DNA of 64,000 bases from a virus, in the IMG/VR virus record IMGVR_UViG_3300007512_001547, positions 1 through 64,000 of that record; one strand, 5' to 3'. The translations under genes were made by a program, and so were the position numbers. This document shows positions 10,437 through 33,049 of this stretch, in pieces. The notes under the pieces are model-generated. The model did not search any database and was not told where the DNA came from. It saw only the letters and a list, made by a program, of their open reading frames with translations. Numbering within the stretch: position 1 is the stretch's first letter; each line of letters starts with the position of its first letter.

Positions 10437-10441
10437 TCTGT

Positions 10442-10447
10442 TATAAT
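10442..10447 (+). promoter_or_regulatory. -10 element before the radical SAM gene
   Basis: TATAAT ends 5 nt before ATG 10453, the same spacing as the consensus promoters elsewhere in the window. No good -35 is visible. Confidence 0.5.
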
Positions 10448-10452
10448 ATAGT

Positions 10453-11997: not shown

Positions 11998-12590
11998 TGA
12001 AAATTCAAATTATTATAGAACCAACATTTAGTAAACAATGGCCTAAATTAAGAATAAGGTTAAATGATACTGACTGGTTTAATGATTTTTGTAAACCCAA
12101 TGAAGGAAAACATTTTGTTTTAACAATGTATCCTGAAGAAATTAACCTTCAAGACTCTAATGCAATATCAATTAAACATTATGATAAATCTAGAAACGAT
12201 ACAATAGTTGACAAAGAAGGCAATATTGAAAAAGATAGAGCAATAATATTAAAATCAATATCTTTTAACGACTTAAAAGTACCAGAAGTTATTCTATACA
12301 AACAACGTTTCTTTCCTGACTGGCCTGATCAACCATTCTACACCACGAACAATTTATATTTTGGATACAATGGGGAATATTTTTATAATTTTAAAAAAGA
12401 TGTTAACAAAATGTACTATGAAAATTTAATACAAAAAGAATTACTAGCAAATATTAATAATAAAAAAATTATGACTTTACCAAGTGGAGAGGAAATAGAA
12501 AGTTTTGAATTTACAGGAAAATTAGTTAGTGGTAGCGAAAAAGAAAACATTACCTTAGATGAATTGTATAACATAGTTAATAAAAAATGA
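11997..12590 (+). CDS. Beta-rich paralogue protein A (197 aa)
   Basis: Function not recognised. The sequence suggests a beta-sandwich of the carbohydrate-binding or jelly-roll type: short strands, DTDWFN and SISFNDLKV turns, then FFPDWP and a YFGYNGEYFYNF segment. The last features recur in the next gene and in the N-terminal part of the 3584 protein, so the three are probably homologous. The TAATG junction with the radical SAM gene suggests coupling. A partner or substrate-binding module is the simplest guess. Confidence 0.7.
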   Translation: MKIQIIIEPTFSKQWPKLRIRLNDTDWFNDFCKPNEGKHFVLTMYPEEINLQDSNAISIKHYDKSRNDTIVDKEGNIEKDRAIILKSISFNDLKVPEVILYKQRFFPDWPDQPFYTTNNLYFGYNGEYFYNFKKDVNKMYYENLIQKELLANINNKKIMTLPSGEEIESFEFTGKLVSGSEKENITLDELYNIVNKK

Positions 12591-13003
12591 AAATAAAATT
12601 AAATTTAGAAACCGAATATAATAAAACTGCTCCACAATGTAGAATTTTTAGTCTAAAAGATTCTGAAACTGTTCAACTTGAAAAAGAATCAGTTGTAGAA
12701 TTAGATTTTAACTTACAAAATAAAGATACACTATCAATAAATTTTTTTAATAAAGATGGAGTTGACGATAATGTAATTAAAATTAATGAAATACATATCG
12801 ATGATATTAATATACAACATTTTATATACAATAGTACATTTTTTCCAGAATATAATGAAAATTGGTATGCTGAACAAGTTGTAAAGCCTCCTAAGTTTTA
12901 TTCTCCTTGTACAGAATTGCGACACAATGGTATATGGATTTTAAATATTACTACACCCATATGGAAAATGATGATGAACGAATGGATTAAAGATGACAGA
13001 TAA
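12587..13003 (+). CDS. Beta-rich paralogue protein B (138 aa)
   Basis: Unrecognised family, shorter homologue of the preceding protein. Shared features are the IKINEIHIDDI strand, STFFPEYN and the LRHNGIWIL segment. It overlaps the genes on both sides (4 nt upstream, 11 nt downstream). Two adjacent copies point to local duplication. Confidence 0.7.
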   Translation: MKIKLNLETEYNKTAPQCRIFSLKDSETVQLEKESVVELDFNLQNKDTLSINFFNKDGVDDNVIKINEIHIDDINIQHFIYNSTFFPEYNENWYAEQVVKPPKFYSPCTELRHNGIWILNITTPIWKMMMNEWIKDDR

Positions 13004-13718
13004 TATTCCAAAATTACTACAAGATGCAATTAACGAAAACACTTACGACATCGATGTAATAACAAAGAATTTAAAACTGCCATGGCTTAAACTAGATCTC
13101 AAATTTGATCAACCTACTGACAAAGACATTAATGAATTGATTGCTACTGACGATTGGCGTAAAAAATGGAACTTTACAGGTTTAGAAAAGAATGCATATC
13201 AAGTAAAAAATTGGAATGGTAATATTTTCTTTGGTCCTAAAGATTTCCAAAACTTTTTAAAAATATCTAACGACTTAGAACACGACCATGATGAAGATAG
13301 TAAATGTAGATTTTTTAGAAACAAAATAGAATACGATTGGTACGTTGATTCTAATAATTTTACAAGACAACAAGTTGAAAAATTACTTCCAGATGTTAAT
13401 GACATTAATATAGTAAATTCTTATACACTTCCACCCGGAGGATACGTATTTCCGCATAGAGATTATGCTATTGATAAAATGGGTCTTGCAAAATTATATG
13501 TTGCAATCAAATGGGGTGATGGTAATATTTTTGGACAATATGGCTGTGGTAATATTCCTATAAACGAAGGTGATATATTTTTAATTAACAATTACACTCT
13601 TCCACATTGGGTTTATAATGGCAGTAAAGAAAACAGAATTGTAATTGATATAAGTGCTAATTTAAATTCTCCAAACATTAAAGAAAGTATTATTAGGGCA
13701 TTTAAAAAATGGAAATAA
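12993..13718 (+). CDS. 2OG-Fe(II) oxygenase, Asp/Asn hydroxylase-like
   Basis: Double-stranded beta-helix dioxygenase that uses 2-oxoglutarate, O2 and Fe(II). The iron triad is H155-x-D157 (PHRDY) and H205 (LPHWVYN), with R215 ten residues later as the 2OG-binding Arg; this layout fits the aspartyl/asparaginyl beta-hydroxylase group. 241 residues. The first 110 residues are unassigned. The target may be a protein side chain or a small molecule. It sits between the beta-rich paralogues and mini-sufD, overlapping both neighbours. Confidence 0.82.
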   Translation: MTDNIPKLLQDAINENTYDIDVITKNLKLPWLKLDLKFDQPTDKDINELIATDDWRKKWNFTGLEKNAYQVKNWNGNIFFGPKDFQNFLKISNDLEHDHDEDSKCRFFRNKIEYDWYVDSNNFTRQQVEKLLPDVNDINIVNSYTLPPGGYVFPHRDYAIDKMGLAKLYVAIKWGDGNIFGQYGCGNIPINEGDIFLINNYTLPHWVYNGSKENRIVIDISANLNSPNIKESIIRAFKKWK

Positions 13719-14275
13719 AAAACAACTACAAAAAAATTATAAACTTAAAAGAAAATTCAGTATTAAATTACAACTTAAAAGCAAACTCGTCTGCTTGTTT
13801 ATTCTTTTGTGATTATGCTGGTTTCATAACAGAAATTAACATAAACCTAGATACAAATTCTTCATGTGAGTTATATGGTTTCTTTAAAAATACTAATGAA
13901 AACACTGCTGTTATTACTAAAGTAATACACAAAGGTAATAATTCAAAATGCGACCAAGATTTTAGATTTGTAAACAAAAATAGTATTAGTTCTTTTAAAG
14001 GTTTAATATCTGTTCCTAAACATATTAAAAATTGTGAAAGTCATATGACAAACAAGAATCTTTTACTAGATAATACTTCTCAAGCATTCGCAAAACCAGA
14101 ATTAGATATTAAAAATTCTAATGTTGTTTGTACACATAGCAGTACAACTGGCACGTTAGATGAAGATCAAATATTTTATATTCAAAGCAGAGGACTTTCT
14201 TACGAGGAATCTGTTAATATGCTCATAGAAGCATTTTATCAAGATATTAAAAGTAAAATGGAGGCAAGTTTATGA
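13709..14275 (+). CDS. sufD: Miniature SufD (C-terminal half only)
   Basis: SufD pairs with SufB in the SufBC2D complex. This 188-residue protein matches only the C-terminal half of the usual 400-plus residue SufD: beta-helix strands, then AKPELDI, CTHSSTTG, and LDEDQIFYIQSRGLSYEES. H143 in CTHSS corresponds by context to E. coli SufD His360, the residue proposed to face SufB Cys405 in cluster assembly. The frame opens with its own ATG and no remnant of the N-terminal half lies upstream, where the oxygenase occupies the DNA, so it looks like a reduced but functional gene. A second SufB-like half is the alternative reading. Confidence 0.85.
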   Translation: MEIKNNYKKIINLKENSVLNYNLKANSSACLFFCDYAGFITEININLDTNSSCELYGFFKNTNENTAVITKVIHKGNNSKCDQDFRFVNKNSISSFKGLISVPKHIKNCESHMTNKNLLLDNTSQAFAKPELDIKNSNVVCTHSSTTGTLDEDQIFYIQSRGLSYEESVNMLIEAFYQDIKSKMEASL

Positions 14276-16755: not shown

Positions 16756-18102
16756 ATGTGCGGAATAGTCGGAATATACAACGTTCCTGAAGCCTCTAAA
16801 ATTGCGGCCTTAGGAATTCATGGATTACAACATCGAGGACAAGAAGGTGCGGGAATTATTTCATACAACAAAGAATTTCATATCCATGGCGACTATGGAC
16901 GTGTTGATCATATTTTTGGTAGCGACAAAGTTATAAAAAATCTTCCAGGTAGTACAGCAATTGGACACGTTAGATACAGCACTACTGGAGGCACAGGAAA
17001 AAGTAATGTTCAACCTTTATTTTATAATTTAGACTTTGGCGGCTTTGCTATTGCCCACAATGGTGACTTTACTGATTCTGCATATTGGAGAGAAAAGCTA
17101 ACCAAAGAAGGTGCAATATTTCAAACAACAACTGACACAGAAATTATTCCACATTTGATTGCTCGAACAAAAGGTATTGATCCTGTGGATCGTTTACTTA
17201 CAGTATTGAATAAAGTAGAAGGTGCATTTAGCATAGTAACTTTACTTGATGATAAATTAGTTGTTGCTCGAGATCCATATGGCTTTCGTCCTTTAGTTAT
17301 AGGTCAATACGAAGAAGGGTACGCAATAGCATCAGAAACCTGTGCTCTTGATTTAATTGGTGCAACAAACATTAAAGATATCGATCCTGGTACAGTAATC
17401 ATATTCAGTAATGGAAAAAAAGAAACATTTTATTTAGATAAAAAAGTTACAAAACATTTTTGTATATTTGAACACATTTATTTTTCACGTCCTGATACTG
17501 TTATTGATAATCAATTAGTATACGAAGTTCGTAAAAGAATAGGAGAAGAATTAGCAAAAGAAAGTTATGTTGAATCTGACATGGTTGTTCCTGTACCTGA
17601 TTCTGGAATGGCATCTGCACTTGGATATGCTAATCAATCAAAAGTACCTTTTGAACTAGGACTTACACGAAGTCATTACAAAGGAAGAACATTTATTGAA
17701 CCTACACAAAAAATACGAGACTTAGGTGTAAGATTAAAACATAGTGCTATGCAATTGTTTAAAGATAAAACAGTTACCGTTATTGACGATTCTATTGTAC
17801 GTGGAACTACATCTAAAAAAATTATAAAAATGATACGAAAAGCAGGTGCTAAAAAAATACATATGCGTATCTCATCTCCTCCTGTAACTGGACCATGCCA
17901 TTATGGTATTGATACTCCAAACAGAAAAGAACTTATAGCTGGAGAAAGTAATGTAAACGAAATTAAAGAATTTATTGGTGCTGATTCATTAGAGTATATT
18001 TCTATAGAAGGACTACATAAAGCTATGAAAAGTAAGGGCTACTGCGACGCTTGTTTTACAGGCAACTATCCAGTTAAAAAACAATTGGCTATAAACGATT
18101 AA
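16756..18102 (+). CDS. purF: Amidophosphoribosyltransferase PurF
   Basis: First committed step of purine synthesis: PRPP plus glutamine to phosphoribosylamine. The N-terminal glutamine amidotransferase domain opens with the nucleophile directly as Cys2 (MCGIVGIYN), so no propeptide needs removal. The PRTase domain carries the PRPP loop TVIDDSIVRGTTS near residue 342. 448 residues, slightly short but complete. It would lift purine supply for phage replication, in line with thyX. Marine phages carry several pur genes. The stop TAA is part of the late promoter of the next gene. Confidence 0.96.
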   Translation: MCGIVGIYNVPEASKIAALGIHGLQHRGQEGAGIISYNKEFHIHGDYGRVDHIFGSDKVIKNLPGSTAIGHVRYSTTGGTGKSNVQPLFYNLDFGGFAIAHNGDFTDSAYWREKLTKEGAIFQTTTDTEIIPHLIARTKGIDPVDRLLTVLNKVEGAFSIVTLLDDKLVVARDPYGFRPLVIGQYEEGYAIASETCALDLIGATNIKDIDPGTVIIFSNGKKETFYLDKKVTKHFCIFEHIYFSRPDTVIDNQLVYEVRKRIGEELAKESYVESDMVVPVPDSGMASALGYANQSKVPFELGLTRSHYKGRTFIEPTQKIRDLGVRLKHSAMQLFKDKTVTVIDDSIVRGTTSKKIIKMIRKAGAKKIHMRISSPPVTGPCHYGIDTPNRKELIAGESNVNEIKEFIGADSLEYISIEGLHKAMKSKGYCDACFTGNYPVKKQLAIND

Positions 18103-20364: not shown

Positions 20365-20787
20365 TTACCCGTACGGGCCAGCAATTGGACAGGTACTAGT
20401 TAATAAGTGCCAAAGTTTGTCATAGTCCCAATCAAAATTATGCTGTTCTTTTAAGTATTGTTTCTGCAATGGCCAAGCATCTTTCTCCATTTGATTTACA
20501 CAATCATAATCTATTTCATTTATATCCTGCAGATAATGAATTACTTCATGTAATAATACTGATAGGCTCCATGGATCAGTTCTATCCCATGTGTCTGGCA
20601 ATATTATTAAATCAAGTTTAATATCATAAAATCCATGTAATGTAACACCTTCATACTTTTCACCACCATAATATGCTTCTTCCATTTTATCCTGTGTTAC
20701 AAACAAAATCGTTGGTTCAGGAACATCTATATTATAATTTGTGTTAGCTCCTATCCAAATCATCAGAGCCATAATAATTTCTTTCAT
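20365..20787 (-). CDS. Exported HExxH metallopeptidase-like protein (minus strand)
   Basis: One of only two convincing minus-strand genes. The 140-residue product begins with a hydrophobic segment (IIMALMIWIG) that may be a signal or anchor, and contains H80-E81-V-I-H84 (LLHEVIHYLQ), the zinc peptidase signature, with E and D residues downstream as possible third ligands. I chose the second ATG (20785-20787) because a late element TAAATA on the same strand (20799-20794) ends right against the first ATG, leaving 6 nt to the second. Zinc-protease activity is predicted only from the motif. Confidence 0.75.
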   Translation of the reverse strand: MKEIIMALMIWIGANTNYNIDVPEPTILFVTQDKMEEAYYGGEKYEGVTLHGFYDIKLDLIILPDTWDRTDPWSLSVLLHEVIHYLQDINEIDYDCVNQMEKDAWPLQKQYLKEQHNFDWDYDKLWHLLTSTCPIAGPYG

Positions 20788-20793
20788 TGACAT

Positions 20794-20799: not shown

Positions 20800-20828
20800 A
20801 TACTTTCGAGTTTAAAAATTTATAACAA

Positions 20829-20834
20829 TAAATA
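20829..20834 (+). promoter_or_regulatory. Late-type promoter element before htrA-like gene
   Basis: CAATAAATATC; the TAAATA ends 5 nt before the GTG start at 20840, with no Shine-Dalgarno. Confidence 0.6.
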
Positions 20835-20839
20835 TCATA

Positions 20840-21901
20840 GTGAAAAAGATCTTTTTAGTTACAGTGTTTGTTCTCTTTTCCTCAATATCTTTTGCCGAAA
20901 TTGATATCGATTGGAAGTGGGGAAAGGTATTCGATAGTGTTGTATTAATCAGCGGTGAGAATGTAGCTGAAACAATACCTAAAAGTCCTGACGTAGCACC
21001 ACACGAAAAAGAACAAAAGTTTGATTCTCTTAAACCAAGGATTATTCCATATGGCATGGGAACAGGTTTTTTTATTAATAAAATTCATATAGTAACAAAT
21101 TATCATGTTATTAAAAATTTTGATAAGATATCAATTTATGCTTTTAATCATTTGTTTCCAATAACAGATGTTACACTTGTAGGTTATGATGAAGAAATTG
21201 ATATTGCAGTACTACAAATTAATGAAGACGTTGAACATCATTTTTTAAGATGGTCAGATACTGCTCCTCTTATCGGGGAAGATGTTTATGCACTTGGACA
21301 TGGAATGAGTCAATTATGGTCATTAACAAAAGGTATTTTAAGTTATGATTATCGACAAAATCCAGGCACAAGTTTTGTTCATTATATGCAAACTGATGCT
21401 GTTATAAATTCTGGTAACTCGGGAGGTCCATTGCTTAATGAAGATGGCGAAGTTATAGGTGTTAATACCTTACTAATCTCACCAGACAAATATTATGTTG
21501 GATACGGTTATATCCTTCCAACGCCTTTAGTCAAACGAGCAGTTACTCAAATTTTAGCAACTGGAGAACACATTAAACCGTTTATGGGAATTCTAATGGG
21601 TCATATTGAAGGACGAGAACAGTACGAAGAATTAAAAGCAAAAGAAATAGGTCACTATTTAGAAATTAAAGAAGTTACTAAAAATTCGCCAGCAGACCAT
21701 TTTGGATTATTAGCAGGCGATATAATAATTTCAATTGACGATAAAGATATTCAAGTAGTACCTCAAGTAATTGAATTGCTATGGGAACGAAATCCTGGTG
21801 ACCAAGTAAGTTTCAAAGTTTATAGAGATCATGAATATCATACTATCGATATCGTTTTAGGAAAAGCAAAAAACCAAAAACCCAACAAATATCCAAAATA
21901 A
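20840..21901 (+). CDS. Secreted HtrA/DegP-like serine protease with PDZ domain
   Basis: Periplasmic trypsin-fold protease and quality-control factor. A signal peptide (residues 1-19, VFVLFSSISFA) is followed by the protease domain with the complete triad H89 (TNYHVI), D121 (EIDIAV) and S194 (SGNSGGP), and one PDZ domain from about residue 250 (SPADHFGLLAGDIIISIDD). 353 residues, the size of DegS or short DegQ forms. The start is GTG, chosen because the late element sits 5 nt before it and the signal peptide begins there. Encoded just ahead of the secreted FecR protein, it may process or protect exported phage products (inference). An HtrA in a phage is rare. Confidence 0.92.
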   Translation: MKKIFLVTVFVLFSSISFAEIDIDWKWGKVFDSVVLISGENVAETIPKSPDVAPHEKEQKFDSLKPRIIPYGMGTGFFINKIHIVTNYHVIKNFDKISIYAFNHLFPITDVTLVGYDEEIDIAVLQINEDVEHHFLRWSDTAPLIGEDVYALGHGMSQLWSLTKGILSYDYRQNPGTSFVHYMQTDAVINSGNSGGPLLNEDGEVIGVNTLLISPDKYYVGYGYILPTPLVKRAVTQILATGEHIKPFMGILMGHIEGREQYEELKAKEIGHYLEIKEVTKNSPADHFGLLAGDIIISIDDKDIQVVPQVIELLWERNPGDQVSFKVYRDHEYHTIDIVLGKAKNQKPNKYPK

Positions 21902-21938
21902 ACATTATATACGCATAGATAATAAATGCACATATTAT

Positions 21939-21960
21939 TAAATATCTATGAGCGAGGTTA
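21939..21960 (+). promoter_or_regulatory. Late element plus SD-like box, copy 1
   Basis: TAAATAT, 3 variable bases, TGAGCGAGGT. The same arrangement with identical spacing recurs at 22134-22153 before the FecR gene. Only the 3 central bases differ. Confidence 0.55.
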
Positions 21961-21969
21961 ACGTACAAA

Positions 21970-22110
21970 ATGGCAGGTCGATCAAAAAAGATCTATCAAA
22001 TAACTCACACTCTCGTAACGACAAAAGAATCTAATCTCAAAGGCAACATAACTAATCTCTTGGCTATACATAGCCAGCCTCTTGACCACGGCATGAGTGT
22101 CTTTGAGTAG
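21970..22110 (+). CDS. Possible 46-residue leader protein
   Basis: An ATG frame of 46 codons (begins MAGRSKKIYQ, ends DHGMSVFE) lies in the 255-nt space before the FecR gene, 12 nt after the GCGAGG box of copy 1. A competing 28-codon frame starts at ATG 21948 inside the same box. The peptide is basic at the N-terminus and unrecognised. The region also has a small hairpin (GGCTA 22062-22066 with TAGCC 22071-22075). It may be a small protein gene or an untranslated leader. Confidence 0.35.
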   Translation: MAGRSKKIYQITHTLVTTKESNLKGNITNLLAIHSQPLDHGMSVFE

Positions 22111-22131
22111 ATTCTATCTCTAATACACCCA

Positions 22132-22153
22132 TATAAATATTGCTGAGCGAGGT
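22132..22153 (+). promoter_or_regulatory. Late promoter TATAAATA and SD of the FecR gene, copy 2
   Basis: Exact T4 late consensus TATAAATA at 22132-22139, then TGAGCGAGGT whose GCGAGG serves as Shine-Dalgarno for ATG 22157. Confidence 0.7.
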
Positions 22154-22156
22154 ATT

Positions 22157-25100
22157 ATGTCAGAGCATTCCATTGGAAAAATTACAATTACTGACGGTGT
22201 CGTTGTAATTCAACGAGATAATCAGTCAATAGAACTACAAGAAGGCGATTCTATCTATCTTAATGATGTTGTAGAAGCCAAAGGCGGTTCTGTTGGTATT
22301 GCATTTGCTGACCAAACCTCAATGTCAATTGATCCAGGTGCAAAAATGGTCATTGACGAATTTGTTTATGACCCTGAAGATCCTACAACAGGTTCAATGA
22401 GCGCCAATGTAATCACAGGAAACTTTTCTTTTGTTTCAGGACAAATTGCCAAAGTGGGTAATGATGCAATGAAAGTTACAACACCTGTGTTAACAATTGG
22501 TGTTAGAGGTACACAGGTTGCAGGTAAGGCCAATACAGATGGTGAAGAAAACGAGATAGTTCTACTGCCAAACGATGATGGCACAGTTGGACAGATTATG
22601 ATCAAAAACGAATCTGGCGAAGTGTTATTGACAAAAGCATTTGAGGCAACAACAATTATAAATGCTTATACTGTTCCTACTGTACCTGTTATATTACCAA
22701 AAGAAATAGTTCTTAAAAAGTTTGCTTCTACTATTGCAACAACTAGAAAAACAGAAGCAAAAGCAGAAGTAGAAAGAGAAACGGAAGAAGCAGTTAGAGA
22801 AAAAGAAAAAGCCGAGGATGAAAAAGAAGAACTAGAAGAGGAAAAAGAAAAACTTGAGGAAGAACAAGAAGAACTAGAAGAAGAAAAGGAAGAACTAGAA
22901 GAAAAAGTTGAGGAACTTGAAGAAGAGAAAGAGGAAGTAGCAGAAGAGAAAGAAGAAATCGAAGAGAAACTTGAAGAAGTATTTGAAGAGAAAGAAGAAA
23001 TCGAAGAGAAGAAAGAAGAAGTTGTAGAAGAAATTGAGGAACTCGAAGAGAAATTAGAAGATGCCAACATACAAGAAAGACAGGCCATCGAGAAAGAACT
23101 AGAAAAATTAGAAGAAGAATTTGAAGAGATAGAGGACGAAGTACAAGAGATCGAGAAAGAGATTGATGTAGTTGCCAAAGAGAAGGTAGCGGTTGAGAAG
23201 AAAGTACGAGAGATTGAGAAAGAATTCGTTGAAGCAAAAAAAGATTTTGTTGAGATAGAACAAAAAGTAGAATTTGTTGAAAAAGAAGTATTAGAAGTAA
23301 TTGAAAAAGAACTAGTGATAGAGCAAGAGATTAAACTAGTTGAAGAAAAATTTGAAGCCATTGTAGAAGAATTTGAAGTGTTCCAAAAAGAATTCGTGCA
23401 GGAGTTCGAGGACTTCATTCCAGAAGAGGAGATACAACAGTTTATGGAAGAAGCACCAATAGAACTTATTGAGGAATTCCAAGAAAACATAATAGAAAAA
23501 TTAGAAGAAGAAAAAGTAAACATACAGGAAAATGAGAACGAAGTAAAGAAAGATGAGGAAGTAGAAGATCCATTTGCTGAAGAAAACGTTGAGAAGGCTA
23601 TAAAGGACTTGGACCAAAAGCAGGAAGAACTGATAGGTGAAGTAGACGAACTGATAGAGAAAGATATGGAACTTCAAGAAGAGGCTAAGGAACTAGATGA
23701 GAAAGCACAGCAACTTGAGGAAGAAGCACAGGAATTAGAAAAGGAAGCACGTCAATTAGAAGAAGAGGCAGAGAAAGCCTACGCAAACAATGACGAAGAA
23801 GCAATACAGGAAATCGAAGAAAAGTTCCAAGAACTAGATGAGAAGTTTGAGGAAGTTGATCAAGGGTTCCAACAAATTGACGAGGGTTTCCAAGAATTAG
23901 ACAAAGAGTACAAAGAACTTGACGAACAGTTCCAAGAGGTCAACGAGCAGTTTATCGATATAGATGAACAATTTCAGGAAGTGATAGAGTTCGAGCAGAA
24001 ACTTGAAGATAACCAACAGGTTGATGGACCAGGGTTCAACGAAGACAATGATGTGTTTAACGTGCCTGAAGATCAACAAGTAGACAACATAAAAGTAGAA
24101 CAGTTTATAAAGGAAGAAAAAGAAAAAGCACTAGAAAATAATGTGTTTGCCCAAGAGGCAGAGGATTTCTTTGAAAACGAGGAAGTTATCATAAACGAAG
24201 ATGTAGATGATCAAGTAAAAGATTTGTTTATCCTTAATGCACAAAACATTGATCAATTTATAGAAGGTGCTGGTAGTGGTATTAATAATGCAGAAGATTA
24301 TGAGGATCAAGAAAATGAATGGGCAGACTATGATGCCATAATGGACTACAACGAAGAAGCATACGAAGATCAACTAGAAGCAGATGCATGGTTTGATCAA
24401 TGGATAGCAGATTTGGCTGAAGAACAAAATATAAACGTTGCTCCATGGTTAGATATGCCAAACGATACAAGTGTTGCTGAAAGCCTATCTGTAGGAACGA
24501 CTTTAGGTTATGTGTATGGTTCAGACGCAAACGGTGATCAATTAACTTACAGCATATTAAGTGATGCATCAGGCAAGATTGCAATAGACGGAAGTAGATT
24601 GTATTTGAAAGAATCATTTGATACCATTTCATCCGACACAGAGTATTCCGTATTATTAAAAGTGCAAGATCCATATGGTGCATCTGATGTGGACGAATGG
24701 ACAGTTACAGTTGAGAACAACCACTCGCCTGTGATATCCAACACTAGTGCTGTGTCATTAGCAGAGAACGTTAGCACAGGTACAGCGGTGGCAACAATAT
24801 CTGCCTCTGACGCTGAAAGCGAAACAATAACATATTCAATAACAGCAGGTAATGACGAAGGCAAGTTTTCTATCAACAGTTCAACAGGTGTAATCACATA
24901 CAACACACAGACGGCTGTGCTGACCACAGAAACGTTTGAAAGCACTTCCGATGGTGCAACACCAACAGGTTGGACAGGATCAACAGTTGACGCCACGACC
25001 TACTACGGAAAAATATTAGGTAGGTTCAATGGAGATTCAAACACAGGACAGGATGTCTACAAGACATTTGATTTCAACAGTTCACACGCAGGCAAACGAG

Positions 25101-27247
25101 TCGAGATAGATTTCAACTTCTGGGAGTTTGGTACGTGGGACGCAACTAATCACGGATCACTGGATCAGAGATTCATGGTGTACGTGAACGACACGTTAGT
25201 TGTGCAGGACTTGAGAAGATACACAGGCTCAAACCAACAGAAGTATGGAGAAACAGTGGGTAACCTAGGCACAGGTTGGCAGGCGGCACCAGTTGAATCT
25301 GGCATGGCTATTGTAAACCAATATCAAGAAGGTGAACTTTACAGGGTGTACGGTACACTAGACAGCAATGGTGACATAAAATTAGGATTTGGTGCGAGAC
25401 TGGACGAGGGTATCAACAACGAGAGTGGTGCTGTTGACAACATAAAGATATCACTAACAGATTTAAATTACGAGGACGACACGCAACACGTTCTCACAAT
25501 TACGGCGACCGACGCAGGTAACAACACAGACACAGTTACACAGACAATCAATGTGACAGACGTCAACGAAGCACCATATTTCATTGACAATGTGTATGCG
25601 GCGAGAACGATAGCAGAGAACGGCTCGTCTGGTACAGATGTTGCCAAGGTACACGCAGAAGATCTCGAGGGAGATTCCATAACATATTCAATCACAGCAG
25701 GTAACACCGGCAATAAATTTACAATTAACTCATCGACGGGTCTGATCGAGACAGCAGGTGCACTGGACTATGAGACGACCAGTTCATACACATTAACGAT
25801 TACAGCAACTGATGAGCATAGTGCAACCGACACAACCACGATAACAGTGAACGTGTCTGATGACACATCGGACAATAGTTTCGCCCAAGGCATAAGCAAC
25901 ACTTCTATAGATGCCTGGGGAGCAAGATACTCGCATGACATGGTATTAAACAACGCATGGGCGGAAGGTAATGTTTTAGTGATGCACGGTGACAGAACTT
26001 TAAGCGGTAGCACCCAACTGGGTGGCAATCTTGGAGATACTCAGGCTGGATCATTATCTGTTTCCTACGATAATGATAGTGCTGGTAATTTTTCTACTAT
26101 GAGTTTGGCATACGTATCACAGTTTTCACAGATTTGGGATGGAAATTGGAACACAAGGGTTAATAGCAATAGTGATCTAACTGATCTTTGGGGCAAATAC
26201 CTCATGGCAGGAGGCTCGTTGGTTGTAGTCACAGAACACTCTGGTTGGGACAATGCCAAGAATGCCGACGTAGAAGATTTCATCAATGTGATTGACACAA
26301 CGTCATCGACTAACAACAATTTGATCAGTGGATCCGGTCCAACTCCACAACACCTACAACCAGATTACCTAGGGTACTCTGAAGGAAGTTCGGAACTGGA
26401 GTTAAAGCCGGGACAGTCAACATCAACCTATCACAAAGAGTACATGGGTAGAGGAGATCTGGTGTTCCAAGAAACAGGTAATGACAACGATGGTGCAGTG
26501 GCAGAATGGAGCAGAGAAGACACAGAAGCGGTGTACACAGGAGCATTCCTTGCCTGGGGTGACATTGATGCTCACAGTCACATCTCTTCTTTTGGATCAG
26601 AACAAGCACATTGGGAGATTGCTAGATGGTTAACAGAACAGAACGAGGACGCAATGACAGAATCGGACGGTGCAGGCATAGTGGTTGACTCTGAATACCT
26701 TCCGAGGTTTGCAGATTCATATGGATCCGGGATACACGAGACAGAGAATGATATTACTGCTATAGAATCACTTCACCTAGGTAACAATGTGTACATTGGG
26801 GGTGGTATGGATCACATCGACCTTGTGTGGGATGACTCGGCGGACGCCGCATACTGGGCCTTTAACTCAGACATGGACAACGGTGCAACACCAACTCAAG
26901 CAGATGATCACTATGGTGTGATAGGTTATGACCGGGACGGTGATGGAGATCTCTGGGAGACCACTGACACATTCACCCTAAACAAAATCAAGATACTGGA
27001 TGACTCGGAGGACTACCTGACACAAGACCCAGATGCCAGTGGCGATTATTACTTTAAAATAACACCGGTTGTTTACGCTGGTGGCAGTTGGCAAGTGGTC
27101 ACCTCACAAACAGTGACAGTTTCAAACACAACAGGCTACAACGATTACCTTGATTTAGATGCAGTTTCTGATGCTTTCGACAACATAAATTACGCACTGA
27201 TCGAGACAGAGTCGGCACTAATATCAGAAGTTGTGGTTTCTACATAA
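22157..27247 (+). CDS. Giant FecR/coiled-coil/cadherin surface protein, probable type I secretion cargo
   Basis: 1696 residues in four parts. Residues about 1-170: FecR domain (KITITDGVVVIQRDNQSI, VRGTQVAG), typical of proteins placed beside type I systems. About 195-640: a very long Glu/Lys coiled coil. About 760-1238: three cadherin-like repeats (DANGDQLTYSI; DAESETITYSI; DLEGDSITYSI), the second split by an inserted domain of about 180 residues (919-1098). About 1241-1696: unrecognised acidic, Trp-rich domain with calcium-like DRDGDGDLWE. No Sec signal is present, and TolC, ABC and HlyD-like genes follow, so export by type I secretion is inferred. The 3' half is clearly more GC-rich than the rest. 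It could be an adhesin displayed on the infected cell or carried on the virion. Confidence 0.88.
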   Translation: MSEHSIGKITITDGVVVIQRDNQSIELQEGDSIYLNDVVEAKGGSVGIAFADQTSMSIDPGAKMVIDEFVYDPEDPTTGSMSANVITGNFSFVSGQIAKVGNDAMKVTTPVLTIGVRGTQVAGKANTDGEENEIVLLPNDDGTVGQIMIKNESGEVLLTKAFEATTIINAYTVPTVPVILPKEIVLKKFASTIATTRKTEAKAEVERETEEAVREKEKAEDEKEELEEEKEKLEEEQEELEEEKEELEEKVEELEEEKEEVAEEKEEIEEKLEEVFEEKEEIEEKKEEVVEEIEELEEKLEDANIQERQAIEKELEKLEEEFEEIEDEVQEIEKEIDVVAKEKVAVEKKVREIEKEFVEAKKDFVEIEQKVEFVEKEVLEVIEKELVIEQEIKLVEEKFEAIVEEFEVFQKEFVQEFEDFIPEEEIQQFMEEAPIELIEEFQENIIEKLEEEKVNIQENENEVKKDEEVEDPFAEENVEKAIKDLDQKQEELIGEVDELIEKDMELQEEAKELDEKAQQLEEEAQELEKEARQLEEEAEKAYANNDEEAIQEIEEKFQELDEKFEEVDQGFQQIDEGFQELDKEYKELDEQFQEVNEQFIDIDEQFQEVIEFEQKLEDNQQVDGPGFNEDNDVFNVPEDQQVDNIKVEQFIKEEKEKALENNVFAQEAEDFFENEEVIINEDVDDQVKDLFILNAQNIDQFIEGAGSGINNAEDYEDQENEWADYDAIMDYNEEAYEDQLEADAWFDQWIADLAEEQNINVAPWLDMPNDTSVAESLSVGTTLGYVYGSDANGDQLTYSILSDASGKIAIDGSRLYLKESFDTISSDTEYSVLLKVQDPYGASDVDEWTVTVENNHSPVISNTSAVSLAENVSTGTAVATISASDAESETITYSITAGNDEGKFSINSSTGVITYNTQTAVLTTETFESTSDGATPTGWTGSTVDATTYYGKILGRFNGDSNTGQDVYKTFDFNSSHAGKRVEIDFNFWEFGTWDATNHGSLDQRFMVYVNDTLVVQDLRRYTGSNQQKYGETVGNLGTGWQAAPVESGMAIVNQYQEGELYRVYGTLDSNGDIKLGFGARLDEGINNESGAVDNIKISLTDLNYEDDTQHVLTITATDAGNNTDTVTQTINVTDVNEAPYFIDNVYAARTIAENGSSGTDVAKVHAEDLEGDSITYSITAGNTGNKFTINSSTGLIETAGALDYETTSSYTLTITATDEHSATDTTTITVNVSDDTSDNSFAQGISNTSIDAWGARYSHDMVLNNAWAEGNVLVMHGDRTLSGSTQLGGNLGDTQAGSLSVSYDNDSAGNFSTMSLAYVSQFSQIWDGNWNTRVNSNSDLTDLWGKYLMAGGSLVVVTEHSGWDNAKNADVEDFINVIDTTSSTNNNLISGSGPTPQHLQPDYLGYSEGSSELELKPGQSTSTYHKEYMGRGDLVFQETGNDNDGAVAEWSREDTEAVYTGAFLAWGDIDAHSHISSFGSEQAHWEIARWLTEQNEDAMTESDGAGIVVDSEYLPRFADSYGSGIHETENDITAIESLHLGNNVYIGGGMDHIDLVWDDSADAAYWAFNSDMDNGATPTQADDHYGVIGYDRDGDGDLWETTDTFTLNKIKILDDSEDYLTQDPDASGDYYFKITPVVYAGGSWQVVTSQTVTVSNTTGYNDYLDLDAVSDAFDNINYALIETESALISEVVVST
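22943..23010 (+). repeat. Direct repeat in coiled-coil coding DNA
   Basis: A 26-nt purine-rich segment at 22943-22968 recurs at 22985-23010 inside the coiled-coil region. It encodes EEKEEIEEK, so the coil probably grew by short duplications. Confidence 0.7.
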
Positions 27248-27249
27248 AA

Positions 27250-27255
27250 TAAATA
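27250..27255 (+). promoter_or_regulatory. Late-type promoter element before tolC-like gene
   Basis: AAATAAATATACAT; TAAATA ends 10 nt before ATG 27266, no Shine-Dalgarno. Confidence 0.5.
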
Positions 27256-27265
27256 TACATATTAA

Positions 27266-29116
27266 ATGAAAAAATTAGTTAATTACATCCTAATAGCAAT
27301 AATGCTGAACTGGAACGTGACTGTTTTTGCGGACGACGATGTTGAGGGTTGTAAATGGGAAGTAGTTGAAGAAACTGAACAGTATCTACAGGAACAATGT
27401 ATAGGAGTAGACGGTCAATATAGTGCAAGAATAAGATCTAAACCTATCGACAACAGTATAGTATATGTAAAAACTGAAAAGAAAGATGCAAATCCTATAC
27501 AAAAATATAGAGACAGTGAAGTATTAAAAACACCGATTGGTGTACATGACGATTTAAAAATTGCAGAGTTAAAAGAAGAAGTTGAAACAACTGCAAAAAA
27601 AATTGATCAACTAAAAATAGATCAAGCAGTAGAAGAAAAGAAAAAAATTGAGTTAGATGTAGTTGAAAAAGCAATTGAACACATTGAAGAAAAGAAAACT
27701 GCAGAAACAGAAAAAGCACAAGTACTTGATCCAAAACTTAAAAATGAATTAAACAAAAAAGACATACATGAAGAGTCAGATAAAAAAATTATTGCAGAAG
27801 CAGAAGAAAAAGAATGGAAAGAAGTAGATGAAAATGTTGAAGTTGCGGAAGTAGAAAAAGAGCCTAAAATTAATTGGATGACATTGTATCAAATGTTACC
27901 AAGACTTATTTTAGAAAACGAAAAAGTTAAAGCGGCAGAATTAGATTATGAAGCGGCATTAGAAACATTAAAATCAGAATATTCTGCATACTATCCTCAA
28001 GTAACAATTACTGTAGGAAACAACTGGGAAGACGACAGATCAGTTTCTAAAGGCACATATCCTAGCAATACAATTACACATGACGGAAAACACGGTGTAC
28101 AAAAATCTATTTCAATTACACAAATGTTATGGGACTTTGGAAGAACAACGGCTGTTATCGACAAAGCAAAACACACAGCACAACAGGCCTATTATAGATT
28201 AGAACTTGCAACAGAAGATGTTGTTATGGAAGCCATTAATGCATGGTTAAATCTACAGAAAGCATACAACACACACGAAGCAAATAAAAAAGTAGAAGCA
28301 AATGCAAAAATTACACTTGCAATGACAATAGAGAAAGTTAAAGCAGGACAAGGTTCTAAACTAGAACAACTGCAAATAGAACAGCAATATAGAACATATC
28401 AAACAATAGTAATGACAAGTAACCTACAACTTGATTCAGCAATACAGAGATTCCAAAATGTATGGAGATACTATCCTACAGATGTTGCAAGTATGCCAAT
28501 ACCATTTGCAGACTTATTAGGTATCATACCTGATTCAGGAAGATCGGTAACTGACAACACTACATTAAAAATTGCACATTTAGATATTGAGATTGCAAAA
28601 GAACAAAAGAAATTTAGCGATGCAGAGTTTAGACCTAGAATAGATGGTAAACTTTCTTACACAGAAAAAGACGGAGAGTTAAGTGGTGGATATGATACTG
28701 ATGACGCACAAAAAGAAGAGTTTAGAGCAGATATTACATTAACTTGGAAACTGTTTGCTGGAGGTAAAAACAAACATATGAATAGTGCTGATAGAATAAG
28801 AATGGAAGCCGCTATTACAAGATATGCTGATACTAAAAGAACAGTACAAGAACAATTTACCAATGCATGGAACAACTATGTATTAGTTGAAAAAAATCTA
28901 GAGACTCTAAAAAGAACAGTAGAAATCAATGATGAGATGTACAAACTTACACTTGCAGACTTTCAAGCAGGTAATTCACCTATAATGGCTGTGTTTGGCA
29001 TGAAGACAGCACATATTATGAGTGAAGTTGCTTATGCAAATGCTCAACTAGATTTATTAATTGCTAGATACCAATTACATAAAGTTCTAGGACTCGTAGA
29101 TCCAAAACTAGACTAA
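27266..29116 (+). CDS. TolC-like outer-membrane channel protein with N-terminal coiled-coil extension
   Basis: TolC trimers form the outer-membrane exit duct of type I secretion. A signal peptide (residues 1-22, IAIMLNWNVTVFA) precedes an extra charged region of about 180 residues, then the outer membrane efflux domain from about residue 205: two helical hairpin repeats with strands (YYPQVTITVGNNW, QMLWDFGRT, ADITLTWKLFAGGKN). The core is normal length. The N-terminal extension is rich in Glu and Lys and echoes the coil of the FecR protein. It lies directly between the cargo gene and the ABC/HlyD genes, so it very likely serves them. Confidence 0.9.
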   Translation: MKKLVNYILIAIMLNWNVTVFADDDVEGCKWEVVEETEQYLQEQCIGVDGQYSARIRSKPIDNSIVYVKTEKKDANPIQKYRDSEVLKTPIGVHDDLKIAELKEEVETTAKKIDQLKIDQAVEEKKKIELDVVEKAIEHIEEKKTAETEKAQVLDPKLKNELNKKDIHEESDKKIIAEAEEKEWKEVDENVEVAEVEKEPKINWMTLYQMLPRLILENEKVKAAELDYEAALETLKSEYSAYYPQVTITVGNNWEDDRSVSKGTYPSNTITHDGKHGVQKSISITQMLWDFGRTTAVIDKAKHTAQQAYYRLELATEDVVMEAINAWLNLQKAYNTHEANKKVEANAKITLAMTIEKVKAGQGSKLEQLQIEQQYRTYQTIVMTSNLQLDSAIQRFQNVWRYYPTDVASMPIPFADLLGIIPDSGRSVTDNTTLKIAHLDIEIAKEQKKFSDAEFRPRIDGKLSYTEKDGELSGGYDTDDAQKEEFRADITLTWKLFAGGKNKHMNSADRIRMEAAITRYADTKRTVQEQFTNAWNNYVLVEKNLETLKRTVEINDEMYKLTLADFQAGNSPIMAVFGMKTAHIMSEVAYANAQLDLLIARYQLHKVLGLVDPKLD

Positions 29117-29125
29117 CAGATTCAT

Positions 29126-29131
29126 TAAATA
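29126..29131 (+). promoter_or_regulatory. Late-type promoter element before ABC membrane gene
   Basis: TTAAATACACATAT; TAAATA ends 8 nt before ATG 29140, no Shine-Dalgarno. Confidence 0.6.
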
Positions 29132-29139
29132 CACATATA

Positions 29140-29895
29140 ATGAAAAACCTAATACGACATCTGTCCAAAGAACCAGGCACGGCATCAATGCTGTTTACCA
29201 GCAGTTTCATAATTGGTATTTGTGCTTTGGCCCCTGCACTATTTGTTATAATTGTTCTTAACAAGTATCTAACATCAGGTGTCACAGCAACATTAATAAG
29301 TTTGTCAATTGGAGCAGTGTTGGCCATAGCATTTGAGTTCACTTTTAGACAGAACAGAGGCAAGATGATGACCGCTTTCAACCAACGTGTGTATGATCCT
29401 CTGTTGAAAGCATTTGGAGAAAAATTTAGCAAAGCAGGACAACTCACTGCACAGCAGTATAAAAAATTAGACAGTGCAGGCACAATGATTAAAAATATGA
29501 GGACATCATCGATGACTAGTTGGATATTGGACTGGCCTTTTGTGTTGATGTTTTTGATTGTGTTGCTGTACATAAATTGGGCCGCATCAATAATCACAGC
29601 AATATTCATGTTGGTAATGTACTTTTTGATAACATGGAAAAAGAACGTGTCCATGTCACAGGACACACAGAGCAACATAGAAATATTTTTAAACGGATTA
29701 CAGACAATCGTGATCATGTCAGTTGGTGCAATGATGATTATAGCCGGCACACTGGACATTGGATTACTGATCGGTTCTAACATATTGGCCGCCCGAGCAT
29801 TACAAGGAACCAGCAAGTATGCCAAGGCAAACGAATTTTTAAAGCAACGAGATCAAGCAGTTGGAGAAATAATAAATTATGTCAAAAGCAAGTAG
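29140..29895 (+). CDS. Type I secretion ABC transporter membrane domain without ATPase
   Basis: Matches the transmembrane domain of PrtD/HlyB-type exporters: the opening SSFIIGICALAPALFVIIVLNKYL resembles the family's first helix, and about six hydrophobic segments follow with the expected cytosolic loops. It stops at 251 residues; no peptidase C39 domain and no nucleotide-binding domain are present, although full exporters run to about 560-700. The HlyD-like gene overlaps the end, so there is no room for a frameshifted ATPase. Either the ATPase is supplied in trans, or the protein has lost active transport. Base composition is richer in GC than the cyclase gene nearby. Confidence 0.82.
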   Translation: MKNLIRHLSKEPGTASMLFTSSFIIGICALAPALFVIIVLNKYLTSGVTATLISLSIGAVLAIAFEFTFRQNRGKMMTAFNQRVYDPLLKAFGEKFSKAGQLTAQQYKKLDSAGTMIKNMRTSSMTSWILDWPFVLMFLIVLLYINWAASIITAIFMLVMYFLITWKKNVSMSQDTQSNIEIFLNGLQTIVIMSVGAMMIIAGTLDIGLLIGSNILAARALQGTSKYAKANEFLKQRDQAVGEIINYVKSK

Positions 29896-30580
29896 TAGAT
29901 TCTTTTTTGCGATAACAACACTGTTTGTTATATTCTTCGTTTGGATGGTATTTGCAAAAGTAGACATAACAACACAGGCAGTTGGAATTGTTGTACCTGA
30001 GAAAAACATCACAAAACTAGGCACAATGGTCACAGGAGAAATTGTTGCTGTGAATTACAAGCAAGGAGATGTTGTCAAGAAAGGTGATGTCATAATAACA
30101 ATCAATCCAGGAGTTGGTTACGAACCTAGAAACATTGTGGCAAACATTGATGGCAGGATACAAGAACTCACTTATAGAAATCCAGGTTCCGTTGTAAAAC
30201 AGGGTGACGGACTTGCAATACTTGTACCATTAGATCAGAAACTTATAGTTAATGGAAGGCTTCTTGTAAAAGATAGAGGTTATGTCAAGGTTGGAATGGA
30301 CGCAAAAGTGAGACTTGCCAATCAAGACCAATTAAAATTTGATAGCATTGATGCAAAAATAATATCCATATCTCCAGATGCTGTACAGTCTGACAGTGCC
30401 GCATGGTATGACATAGAACTAGAAATAGAAAAAGAATTTTTCACAAGTGGTGACACGACTTACAATCTTGTGCCTGGTATCCATGTGTATGTTTTCATAT
30501 TAACAGGAGAGAGAACAGTATTAAGTTATATAACAACACCTTTCCATAACGGAATAGGGCAGGCACTACAGGAAAGGTAA
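29879..30580 (+). CDS. Short HlyD-like membrane fusion protein
   Basis: Periplasmic adaptor linking the inner-membrane exporter to TolC. One N-terminal membrane helix (FFFAITTLFVIFFVWMVFA) is followed by the two lipoyl half-motifs (GEIVAVNYKQGDVVKKGDVI and GRIQELTYRNPGSVVKQGD) and a beta-barrel domain (KVGMDAKVRL). At 233 residues it is half the usual HlyD size, because the long helical hairpin that normally separates the lipoyl halves is replaced by about 20 residues. It overlaps the ABC gene and touches the cyclase start. How it would reach TolC without the hairpin is unclear; the TolC extension might compensate (inference). Confidence 0.85.
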   Translation: MSKASSRFFFAITTLFVIFFVWMVFAKVDITTQAVGIVVPEKNITKLGTMVTGEIVAVNYKQGDVVKKGDVIITINPGVGYEPRNIVANIDGRIQELTYRNPGSVVKQGDGLAILVPLDQKLIVNGRLLVKDRGYVKVGMDAKVRLANQDQLKFDSIDAKIISISPDAVQSDSAAWYDIELEIEKEFFTSGDTTYNLVPGIHVYVFILTGERTVLSYITTPFHNGIGQALQER

Positions 30581-32508
30581 TGAGATTTTTTACAAGCATA
30601 TGGATGGTTATTATTGTTGCTATTGTATTGCTAGGTGTCAGAGTAAACAATAACGATACTGTAAAAACTTTAAGATACAAAACGTGGGATTACTTTCAAA
30701 CTATACATCCTAGACAAGACGTTAGTGATTTAGTTACTATTGTTGATATAGGCGAAAAAGATATTGCAAAGTATGGACAATGGCCATGGCCTAGACATAT
30801 AATGGCAATGCTTCATGCACGATTAGGCGACGCAGGAGCAGTAGTAATTAATTACAATATTCTTTTTGCTGAACCAGATCGTATGGGATCAACCCAATAT
30901 CTAAATTCTTTTCCGATGTCTGATGAAACTAGAGAACTATTACAAAAAAATTTAGTAGACACAGACAAAGTTTTTTCTATAGTAATAAAAGAATCTGGCA
31001 ATACTATTTTAATGATGAGTGTTAAAAATAACATTGATAACATTTTACCTAGCACAACGCAAATTATAAAAAAAGGAAATGTAGAGCCATGGTTATGGAA
31101 CTATGCAGGTATAGTACCTCCTTTGACTGAACTTACAGTAGGTGTAGCAGGAAGTGGTGTAAATGTAACAGCACCCGAACCTGATTCTGTTGTAAGAAAA
31201 ATGCCAATACTAATAACAATAGGCAACAAAATATATCCTAGTATGTTAATTGAAAATGTTAGAGTAATTAACAAATCGAAAAGAATTAAAGTTGTTGCTA
31301 AAGAACACGGTATAGACGAAATCCTTGTTAAAAAGAATGCTGGAATACCTGTAAATCATAATGCAGAAATGTATATAAATTATGCAGATCCAAAAAAATA
31401 TAATCACGTATCTGCTGACTATGTTTTAAGTTCTGAATTTGATGCAAATACAGTTAAAGGAAAAATAGTAGTTGTTGGATTAGATGCCGCGGGATTAAGT
31501 GTGTTAAAATATACACCGTTTGGATTAGCTACAGATCAAGAAATTACTGCTCAAGCATTAGATACATTACTAACAGGAAAATATTTGACTAGGCTTCCAC
31601 AGGCAGATACATATGAAATTTTGTTTATGGGTTTACTAGGATTATTAATGATTATATTAATTCCTAGAGTATCAGTATTATTTTCTATTCCGTTATTAGT
31701 TTTTGTATTAGGTGGAATAAGTTATGCATCATTTATGGCTTATGCAAATAAAGGATTTTTAATTGACCCATCATTTGCAGTACTTTATATATTTTTAATT
31801 TGGTCACATAGCACATACAATAATTTTGCAACACAAAGTAGATTAAGAAAACAAATTAAAAAACAATTTGAACATTATTTAGATCCTGGCATGGTTAAAA
31901 AGTTACAAAAGAATCCATCATTGTTAAAATTAGGTGGCGAAACAAAAACAATGACTTTCTTATTTTCAGACATAAGAGGATTTACACCTATTAGTGAAAA
32001 GTATAAAGGTAATCCAGAAGGACTTACAAAATTAATTAATAGATTTTTAACTAGGATGACCAATGTTATTATTGCTAACGGCGGCACAATAGATAAATTT
32101 ATGGGCGACTGTATAATGGCATTTTGGAATGCTCCACTTGATGTACCAAATCATCAAGTATTAGCAATACAAACTGCTCTACAAATGCAAACCGAATTAG
32201 CAAAATTAAATAAAGAATTAGAAGCTGAAGGATTACCAAACATTAACATAGGCATAGGAATCAACACAGGTGAAGCACTTGTAGGCAACATGGGTTCTGA
32301 TCAAAGATTTGATTATTCTGTAATAGGTGACTCTGTTAACCTTGCATCACGTTTAGAAAGCTCTAGTAAAACATTAGGAAAAACTTTAGTAATTTCAGAC
32401 AATACAGTGCAAGATATTTACGAAGGTGTATTTCCGTTTGAGTATATTGACCATATTACAGTCAAAGGCAAAACAGAAGAAATCAAAGTGTATACAATCA
32501 AAAGTTAA
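30580..32508 (+). CDS. CHASE2-domain adenylate cyclase
   Basis: Membrane sensor that makes a cyclic nucleotide. An N-terminal helix anchors a periplasmic CHASE2 domain (about 30-340: TIVDIGEKDIAKYGQWPWPR, VVINYNILFAEPD), then two or three helices (about 350-420) and a class III cyclase domain. The metal-binding Asps are D464 (FSDIRGFT) and D510 (KFMGDC). Purine-selecting residues K506 and D578 point to ATP, and the transition-state pair N587 and R591 (VNLASR) is present, so the enzyme should be active. 642 residues, complete. It starts on the last base of the HlyD stop. CHASE2 cyclases are often linked with FecR-type genes in bacteria, suggesting the module was taken as a block. Confidence 0.95.
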   Translation: MRFFTSIWMVIIVAIVLLGVRVNNNDTVKTLRYKTWDYFQTIHPRQDVSDLVTIVDIGEKDIAKYGQWPWPRHIMAMLHARLGDAGAVVINYNILFAEPDRMGSTQYLNSFPMSDETRELLQKNLVDTDKVFSIVIKESGNTILMMSVKNNIDNILPSTTQIIKKGNVEPWLWNYAGIVPPLTELTVGVAGSGVNVTAPEPDSVVRKMPILITIGNKIYPSMLIENVRVINKSKRIKVVAKEHGIDEILVKKNAGIPVNHNAEMYINYADPKKYNHVSADYVLSSEFDANTVKGKIVVVGLDAAGLSVLKYTPFGLATDQEITAQALDTLLTGKYLTRLPQADTYEILFMGLLGLLMIILIPRVSVLFSIPLLVFVLGGISYASFMAYANKGFLIDPSFAVLYIFLIWSHSTYNNFATQSRLRKQIKKQFEHYLDPGMVKKLQKNPSLLKLGGETKTMTFLFSDIRGFTPISEKYKGNPEGLTKLINRFLTRMTNVIIANGGTIDKFMGDCIMAFWNAPLDVPNHQVLAIQTALQMQTELAKLNKELEAEGLPNINIGIGINTGEALVGNMGSDQRFDYSVIGDSVNLASRLESSSKTLGKTLVISDNTVQDIYEGVFPFEYIDHITVKGKTEEIKVYTIKS

Positions 32509-32511
32509 ATA
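32506..32511 (+). promoter_or_regulatory. Late-type promoter element
   Basis: GTTAAATACACACATA overlapping the cyclase stop; TAAATA ends 8 nt before ATG 32520. Confidence 0.6.
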
Positions 32512-32519
32512 CACACATA

Positions 32520-32801
32520 ATGAATCAATTTTTTAGTCTAGTAGCAGAATTAGGATTACCAATTGCCGCAACAGTGGGAATGGGTGTATTCATACTGTTC
32601 ATAATCAAATATATTTTAAACGGTATTGTAAATTCAATTAAATTTATTGAAAGTGTTATATCTCAACTTGATAACAGAGTAAAAACAATGAACAACGATA
32701 TTATAAAAATTGATCAAGAAGTGTCAGAGCAACTAGGCATACCTGTAGACACAGACAGAGTGGCTAGGGCAGACGGCAAAGTAGATGCGAGGAAAGACTA
32801 A
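32520..32801 (+). CDS. Small membrane protein with coiled-coil tail, paralogue 1
   Basis: 93 residues: short N-terminus, one membrane helix (LPIAATVGMGVFILFIIKYI), then a charged coil (LDNRVKTMNNDIIKID). This design recalls BhlA/UviB-type holin-like proteins, but the match is by topology only. The next gene is a paralogue. Late expression fits a lysis or secretion-accessory role. Confidence 0.75.
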   Translation: MNQFFSLVAELGLPIAATVGMGVFILFIIKYILNGIVNSIKFIESVISQLDNRVKTMNNDIIKIDQEVSEQLGIPVDTDRVARADGKVDARKD

Positions 32802-33049
32802 TGGACGTTGTAAGCAAAACAATGACAGTAACGACAATCATACAGGACTATGGGTTCCCCACTGTCGCTGTGTTCTTCCTTGCATATTTTATATGGTTCC
32901 TTTGGAAATACATTACAAACGAAATTACTCCAAAATTAAATTCCACATCAGCAACACTTATCAAACTCATTGATAGAGTACGTATGCTGGACAATGACCT
33001 TATTCGACTACAGGCTAAAGTGAGAACTGTTAGCAAAAAGAAGAAGTAG
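32801..33049 (+). CDS. Small membrane protein with coiled-coil tail, paralogue 2
   Basis: 82 residues with the same plan as the preceding gene: FPTVAVFFLAYFIWFLWKYI helix and LIDRVRMLDNDLIRLQAKV coil, then a KKKK end. Starts on the last base of the paralogue's stop. The DNA is richer in GC at its start than the first copy, so the pair is either old or from different sources. Confidence 0.75.
   Translation: MDVVSKTMTVTTIIQDYGFPTVAVFFLAYFIWFLWKYITNEITPKLNSTSATLIKLIDRVRMLDNDLIRLQAKVRTVSKKKK

Follow-up and report, generated by a model that had tools for sequence, protein, structure and literature searches.

What use could a phage have for an exporter, a giant adhesin-like protein and a cyclic AMP (cAMP)-signalling enzyme? 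The question is raised by a gene island at positions 20840-33049 of a 64,000-nucleotide stretch of viral DNA (the whole of which we call the window), which comprises positions 1 to 64,000 of the 137,583-base IMG/VR virus record IMGVR_UViG_3300007512_001547. An earlier note on this DNA had listed an HtrA protease, a 1696-residue FecR/coiled-coil/cadherin protein, a TolC channel, an ABC membrane domain, a short HlyD protein and a CHASE2 cyclase; open reading frames (ORFs) for all of these parts are present, and Pfam, NCBIfam and PHROG agree on what they are. The finding is real, and the island is the type I secretion sister of a cassette already described in phages, namely the pelagiphage curli (type VIII secretion) arrangement CsgF-CsgG-curlin-FecR-curlin-adenylate cyclase (PMC9599517; curli part PMC7029224). 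The earlier note named the parts and did not mention their most unusual feature, which is that the exporter is reduced, having neither an ATPase nor the hairpin of its fusion protein.

That the island belongs to a genuine phage genome, as had been claimed, is evident from its surroundings, which include genes for a clamp loader, baseplate wedge/tail-fibre connectors and a virion structural protein. The clamp loader is only about 54% identical to its best named relatives, so that by sequence this marine phage is to be placed as T4-like in the broad sense, with no close kin by this gene among named records. A chimeric join can be rejected, because independent contigs retain the island together with the genes that flank it, in L045 on both sides; L013 is a further case. 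An island confined to bacterial chromosomes is likewise ruled out: the sole matches in one scan of genome contigs were two contigs of a single metagenome-assembled genome (MAG), and these carry the flanking genes of the phage, which identifies them as phage DNA. Binned by mistake with the MAG 'Rickettsiales bacterium MED657', these two contigs, L044 and L045, would lead surveys of host genes astray.

The island also seems set up for late expression, in that its promoters are, to judge by sequence, real T4-type late promoters. The octamer NATAAATA occurs 12 times on the plus strand of the window and not once on the minus strand, and 11 of the 12 copies have an ORF start 6-31 nt downstream (background 5.4%, P ~1e-13), an enrichment far beyond chance that bears out the description of the island as late-promoter-led. 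Three copies precede the genes for HtrA (AATAAATA, 20827-20834), the FecR protein (TATAAATA, 22132-22139, the sole exact copy in the window) and TolC (AATAAATA, 27248-27255), and the others precede tail-fibre and baseplate genes; these three copies and all genes of the island lie on the plus strand. Across the whole record both exact forms are depleted, TATAAATA to 2 observed against some 28 expected and AATAAATA to 18 against some 40. The same octamer stands directly upstream of the CsgF gene in HTVC008M, and a late promoter octamer precedes the phrog_18771 gene of Melnitz; in both of these cultured phages a tblastn search against annotated phages located the cyclase and FecR domain within the curli cassette.

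Conserved synteny, which the earlier note had proposed to look for in viral genome sets, was found in abundance. One scan with the HlyD protein yielded 26 viral contigs, and further ones came from a survey of relatives of FecR and of the cyclase, so that the order FecR-TolC-ABC membrane domain-HlyD-cyclase is now seen, as far as each contig reaches, in some 30 viral contigs besides the window. Among the 26 contigs of the HlyD scan, the TolC-to-cyclase order is nearly always followed, again as far as each reaches, by a pair of small membrane proteins of family phrog_18771, and FecR lies upstream of TolC wherever related contigs extend far enough; they often have a small membrane ORF, or two, at the point where the window passes directly from HlyD to the cyclase. 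In the window the phrog_18771 proteins are paralogues of 93 aa (32520-32801) and 82 aa (32801-33049) that form the 3' end of the island; the pair adjoins cassettes of both the type I and the curli type, in either orientation, and a holin-like role for it would be a guess.

The survey returned 95 loci with curli, FecR and cyclase, 15 type I loci with FecR and cyclase, and 27 more type I loci in which no FecR was seen, mostly on cut contigs, all of these counts being taken over loci that partly overlap or repeat contigs and hence not independent. One contig (L107, 1-10536) holds the two cassettes next to each other, and each has a separate cyclase. What many marine phages have in common is thus a FecR-domain protein with a CHASE2 cyclase, combined with an exporter of either the curli or a type-I-like kind, each exporter having a cyclase to itself. 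Large FecR proteins were also seen in a different phage setting, where they follow a 638-aa protein rich in glycine (L265:9755-12529 and L267:9755-12715), with neither cyclase nor exporter found within those loci.

The membership of the island needs one amendment at its 5' end. The HtrA/DegP-like periplasmic serine protease (20840-21901; 353 aa, GTG start; PF13365 (Trypsin_2), PF13180 (PDZ), TIGR02037) has the catalytic triad of H, D and S and, by inspection, a signal peptide, and it accompanies FecR in only 2 of the 13 distinct contigs that reach upstream of it, the window counted, which rules it out as a core member. The constant upstream partner is instead DUF6647 (20365-20793, minus strand; 142 aa, PF20352), which was found in 12 of the 13 distinct contigs reaching that far, again counting the window, and lies just outside the interval first delimited; HtrA is optional, and the remaining parts stand. 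With its N-terminal hydrophobic segment and HExxH motif (HEVIH), DUF6647 is a candidate periplasmic metalloprotease, transcribed divergently from the island; none of the examined curli-type loci was found to have it.

The exporter itself departs from its bacterial models in all three components. The TolC-family outer-membrane channel (27266-29116; 616 aa; PF02321 (OEP), 166.8 bits; TIGR01844 below cut-off, from residue 206) has a signal peptide by inspection and, before its OEP core, a charged N-terminal extension of about 200 residues; this segment measures some 175-210 residues in those members where it is measurable, and the TolC of a related bacterial locus is only 445 aa long in total. 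The type I secretion ABC transmembrane-domain protein (29140-29895; 251 aa), which matches the membrane part of TIGR03375/TIGR01842, aligns with bacterial permeases over transmembrane helices (TM) 1-4 and 5-6, the segment between TM4 and TM5 (the second coupling loop) and the nucleotide-binding domain (NBD) being missing. The NBD is absent from all 13 aligned phage homologues, and the relatives in 385 alphaproteobacterial genomes, among the matches listed, are frames of at least about 470 aa, except on the two misbinned phage contigs. An AlphaFold model of the protein (mean pLDDT 81) matches the membrane domains of HlyB and PrtD with a template-modelling score of ~0.7-0.8 and a root-mean-square deviation of ~8-10 A; the predicted fold is clear and, given that deviation, the arrangement loose. 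The HlyD-type membrane fusion protein (29879-30580; 233 aa; PF13437 (HlyD_3), TIGR01843) matches a HlyD of known structure (8dck_C) only at residues 65-136 and 327-478, and residues ~137-326 are missing. Fifteen of 16 phage homologues have lost the TolC-contacting alpha-hairpin, L021 retaining ~60 aa, and the bacterial relatives are nearly all at least 328 aa long, except for two short open frames (208 and 186 aa).

These reductions are not the marks of decay. Ratios of nonsynonymous to synonymous substitution (dN/dS) of 0.03-0.11 for the ABC protein and 0.03-0.09 for HlyD indicate strong purifying selection and rule out decaying pseudogenes, for which reason both are most likely working proteins. 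A reduced exporter so constrained brings into question what an ABC membrane domain does without its ATPase, and offers a minimal natural system for the threading and holding of giant adhesins.

The presumptive cargo is an adhesin-like protein of 1696 aa (22157-27247; PF04773, PF00028), which consists of an N-terminal FecR domain, a long acidic coiled coil and cadherin repeats, and ends in the conserved sequence FDxINYALIETESALISEVVV; the C-termini compared form two conserved classes. By inspection it has no Sec signal peptide, in contrast to the FecR proteins of the curli type. Serralysin-type RTX repeats are a hallmark of type I substrates, and its relatives L128 and L129 carry them at the C-terminus. 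The FecR domain was modelled with AlphaFold (residues 1-200, mean pLDDT 91.6), and the model of this N-domain is similar to the surface-signalling domain of PupR (6ovk, template-modelling score ~0.5). Its first half matches 5ix9, the 'cell surface anchoring domain' of an antifreeze (ice-binding) protein, at 37% identity over 62 aligned columns and 1.1 A (sequence profile E 1.5e-4), a modelled likeness that supports, and does not prove, a LapA-like retention; in the bacterial relative L050 the retention_LapA model gives a match below its cut-off.

The signalling component is a protein of 642 aa (30580-32508; PF05226, PF00211) in which a CHASE2 domain (residues 14-356) precedes a class III adenylate cyclase domain (455-641). 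The metal-binding Asp464 and Asp510 are present, as are Lys506, Ser580, Asn587 and Arg591, and D464, D510, K506, N587 and R591 recur in all 19 cyclases of the type I class; the catalytic residues are thus intact, and a class III adenylate cyclase is predicted. Among the curli-type phage cyclases, Ser replaces the transition-state Asn in 9 of 71 and the second substrate position is Asp in 9, substitutions that possibly alter activity. In a quick FastTree analysis the phage cyclases stand apart from 21 sampled bacterial enzymes, and those of the type I class form one supported clade; with so limited a bacterial sampling the tree does not settle the origin of the enzyme. The association of FecR cargo, type I export and CHASE2 cyclases in bacteria, on which the earlier note had relied, is confirmed as co-location in Alphaproteobacteria, where FecR lies within ~10 kb of the cyclase in 10 of 21 loci and type I ABC/HlyD genes are co-located in 6 of these 21. 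Low-GC bacterial relatives bring together at one locus FecR/RTX cargo and a full exporter, in the order TolC-FecR/RTX-ABC-HlyD, a CHASE2 cyclase, a cyclic nucleotide (cNMP)-binding protein and an HlyD-cNMP-binding fusion; it is the presence of cNMP-binding domains both alone and fused to HlyD that suggests that in these relatives cAMP acts on export.

What, then, does the cassette do? What is observed is the set of genes with their late promoters, their synteny and homology, the reductions of the exporter, the purifying selection on two of its proteins and the intact cyclase residues; from this we infer export, retention, sensing, cleavage and a benefit to the phage, in a reading that in our estimate has an even chance of being right: the cassette would be expressed late so that the infected cell displays a giant adhesin in the manner of LapA, with the CHASE2 cyclase reading the periplasmic FecR domain. 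Late in infection, the signal-less FecR/cadherin protein would be exported C-terminus first through the ABC membrane domain, the hairpin-less HlyD and the TolC, whose long extension would lie in the periplasm; coiled coil and cadherin repeats would come to lie outside and the N-terminal FecR domain would stay in the periplasm, as a retention module of the LapA type does. The extracytoplasmic CHASE2 domain might sense an occupied or stalled FecR/export complex, a role proposed because the FecR/CHASE2 pairing spans two unrelated exporters, and the cyclase would then make cAMP for cAMP readers of the host. The periplasmic protease (DUF6647, sometimes also HtrA) could trim or release the adhesin. 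The purpose is probably the binding of neighbouring cells or particles, or the exclusion of competing phages, and of the two outcomes that had been foreseen, a remodelled cell surface is the one that remains the best reading.

Several results count against this proposal. A search for an exporter NBD elsewhere in the phage found none, the sole ABC ATPase over the cut-off being at 8045-8782, which is read as SufC and ruled out as the missing NBD because its neighbours are SufB, SufD-like and radical SAM genes; the 148-kb record G001 holds no ABC ATPase over the cut-off. No LapG protease (PF06035) was detected in any of five phage records, no di-alanine site follows the FecR domain by inspection, the match to 5ix9 is limited to half of that domain, and the giant protein of the window gives no RTX match of its own. 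None of eight phage records searched has a cNMP-binding domain, and therefore the reader of cAMP would have to be the host's. Finally, cultures infected with Melnitz, which carries the sister curli cassette, showed no clumping (PMC9004378).

For export without an ATPase of its own, the candidates for the energy source are the host's ABC exporters or a source other than an ABC protein. A ClpA-like AAA+ protein (58196-60544) is encoded in three phage records of the type I class and absent from three of the curli class; as a substitute motor it is a lead only, the sample being small and confounded by phage lineage. We would advance tentatively, and with distinctly less confidence than the display of an adhesin, that the cassette is an ATPase-free apparatus for type I export and retention, in which an ABC membrane domain lacking both NBD and second coupling loop, a hairpin-less HlyD and an extended TolC thread and hold a giant adhesin on non-ABC energy, and the CHASE2 cyclase signals the condition that the channel is in.

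The same reductions lend themselves to a different explanation, the strongest of the rivals even if an unlikely one, according to which the three proteins form a scaffold for anchoring or gating, or a controlled leak around lysis, and the giant protein leaves through a complete type I exporter of the host. It would account for an ABC protein without NBD and second coupling loop and for an HlyD that cannot contact TolC by a hairpin; complete FecR/type I exporters do occur in low-GC bacteria related to the MAG with the co-binned phage contigs, and the sister curli pore has been suggested to act in lysis (PMC9004378). On the other hand, the conserved operon joins the cargo to a cognate TolC and HlyD, which speaks for a dedicated conduit, and a complete exporter in the actual host is an assumption. 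Much less probable is a role in iron or nutrient uptake, with FecR acting as in ferric-citrate signalling alongside a TonB-receptor-like protein (8763-10436) and SUF genes. Upstream in the window there are indeed genes for SufB, a SufC-like ATPase, a protein with a TonB plug domain and a SufD-like fragment, the FecR fold resembles anti-sigma regulators, and uptake has been suggested as a role of the curli cassette (PMC9599517); yet the FecR domain here forms part of a giant coiled-coil/cadherin adhesin and keeps company with genes for export, the island showed no sigma factor, and curli-type cassettes hold FecR in other gene neighbourhoods. That the proteins build or decorate the virion as an appendage or fibre, the second outcome foreseen in the earlier note, is the least probable of all, for although the late promoter type is shared with tail-fibre and baseplate genes and the repeats are adhesin-like, TolC, HlyD, the ABC protein and the cyclase are inner-membrane, periplasmic or outer-membrane proteins whose bacterial counterparts look like cell-surface systems, the likeness of the large protein to phage fibres goes no further than weak coiled-coil similarity with tail proteins, and no feature typical of a virion component came to light.

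Outside the island, the region 5809-14275 encodes SufB (5809-7239), the SufC-like ATPase, the TonB plug-domain protein, a radical SAM protein (10453-11997) and the SufD-like fragment (13709-14275). The window further contains a full-length DnaK/Hsp70 of 629 aa (565-2454), the start of a DnaK-like gene being seen also in the related contig L257, and a PurF-like protein with glutamine amidotransferase and phosphoribosyltransferase domains (16756-18102).

Set against known systems, the cassette shares with canonical type I secretion a TolC-family channel and departs from it in both of the other components, an ABC protein with NBD and a fusion protein with a long hairpin. The same gene set occurs in the alphaproteobacterial FecR/RTX type I loci with a CHASE2 cyclase (L050, L096-L098), whose ABC and HlyD proteins are homologous to those of the phage; these loci, however, keep the NBD (ABC ~530 aa), the hairpin (HlyD ~425 aa) and cNMP-binding domains, and the phage is without all three. 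The LapA/LapBCE/LapDG systems, together with FrhA/CraA of Vibrio (PMC6890996), resemble the cassette in combining a giant repeat adhesin, with cadherin repeats in the case of FrhA, with a TolC-type channel, type I components, an adjacent putative protease and a second-messenger enzyme, whereas the phage has a cAMP cyclase in place of a receptor for cyclic di-GMP, a reduced exporter and a retention that is presumed by analogy. In Sinorhizobium, CyaD/CyaK-Clr signalling (PMC5498481) likewise employs CHASE2-type cyclases and counts the FecR-domain protein SMc02177 among the cAMP-Clr targets, though as a transcriptional pathway without an exporter cassette. Among phages, a literature search that covered few subscription papers and preprints found the curli version alone and no type I secretion/FecR/CHASE2 cassette; the statement that no phage system of this composition had been described was therefore too strong for the published core of FecR and CHASE2 cyclase, and stands, on that search, for the type I version. 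Relative to that curli cassette, the FecR domain of the window is 36-38% and its CHASE2 cyclase 34-40% identical, and the phrog_18771 pair lies near both; the curli type has CsgG/CsgF, neither of which has a match in the window, and curlin where the window has TolC, the ABC membrane domain, HlyD and a giant adhesin, and the window type is set apart by DUF6647, a signal-less FecR protein and a cyclase of a separate clade. Such a sister, built on another exporter around the same FecR and cyclase core, offers a second way to test what the published curli cassettes do.

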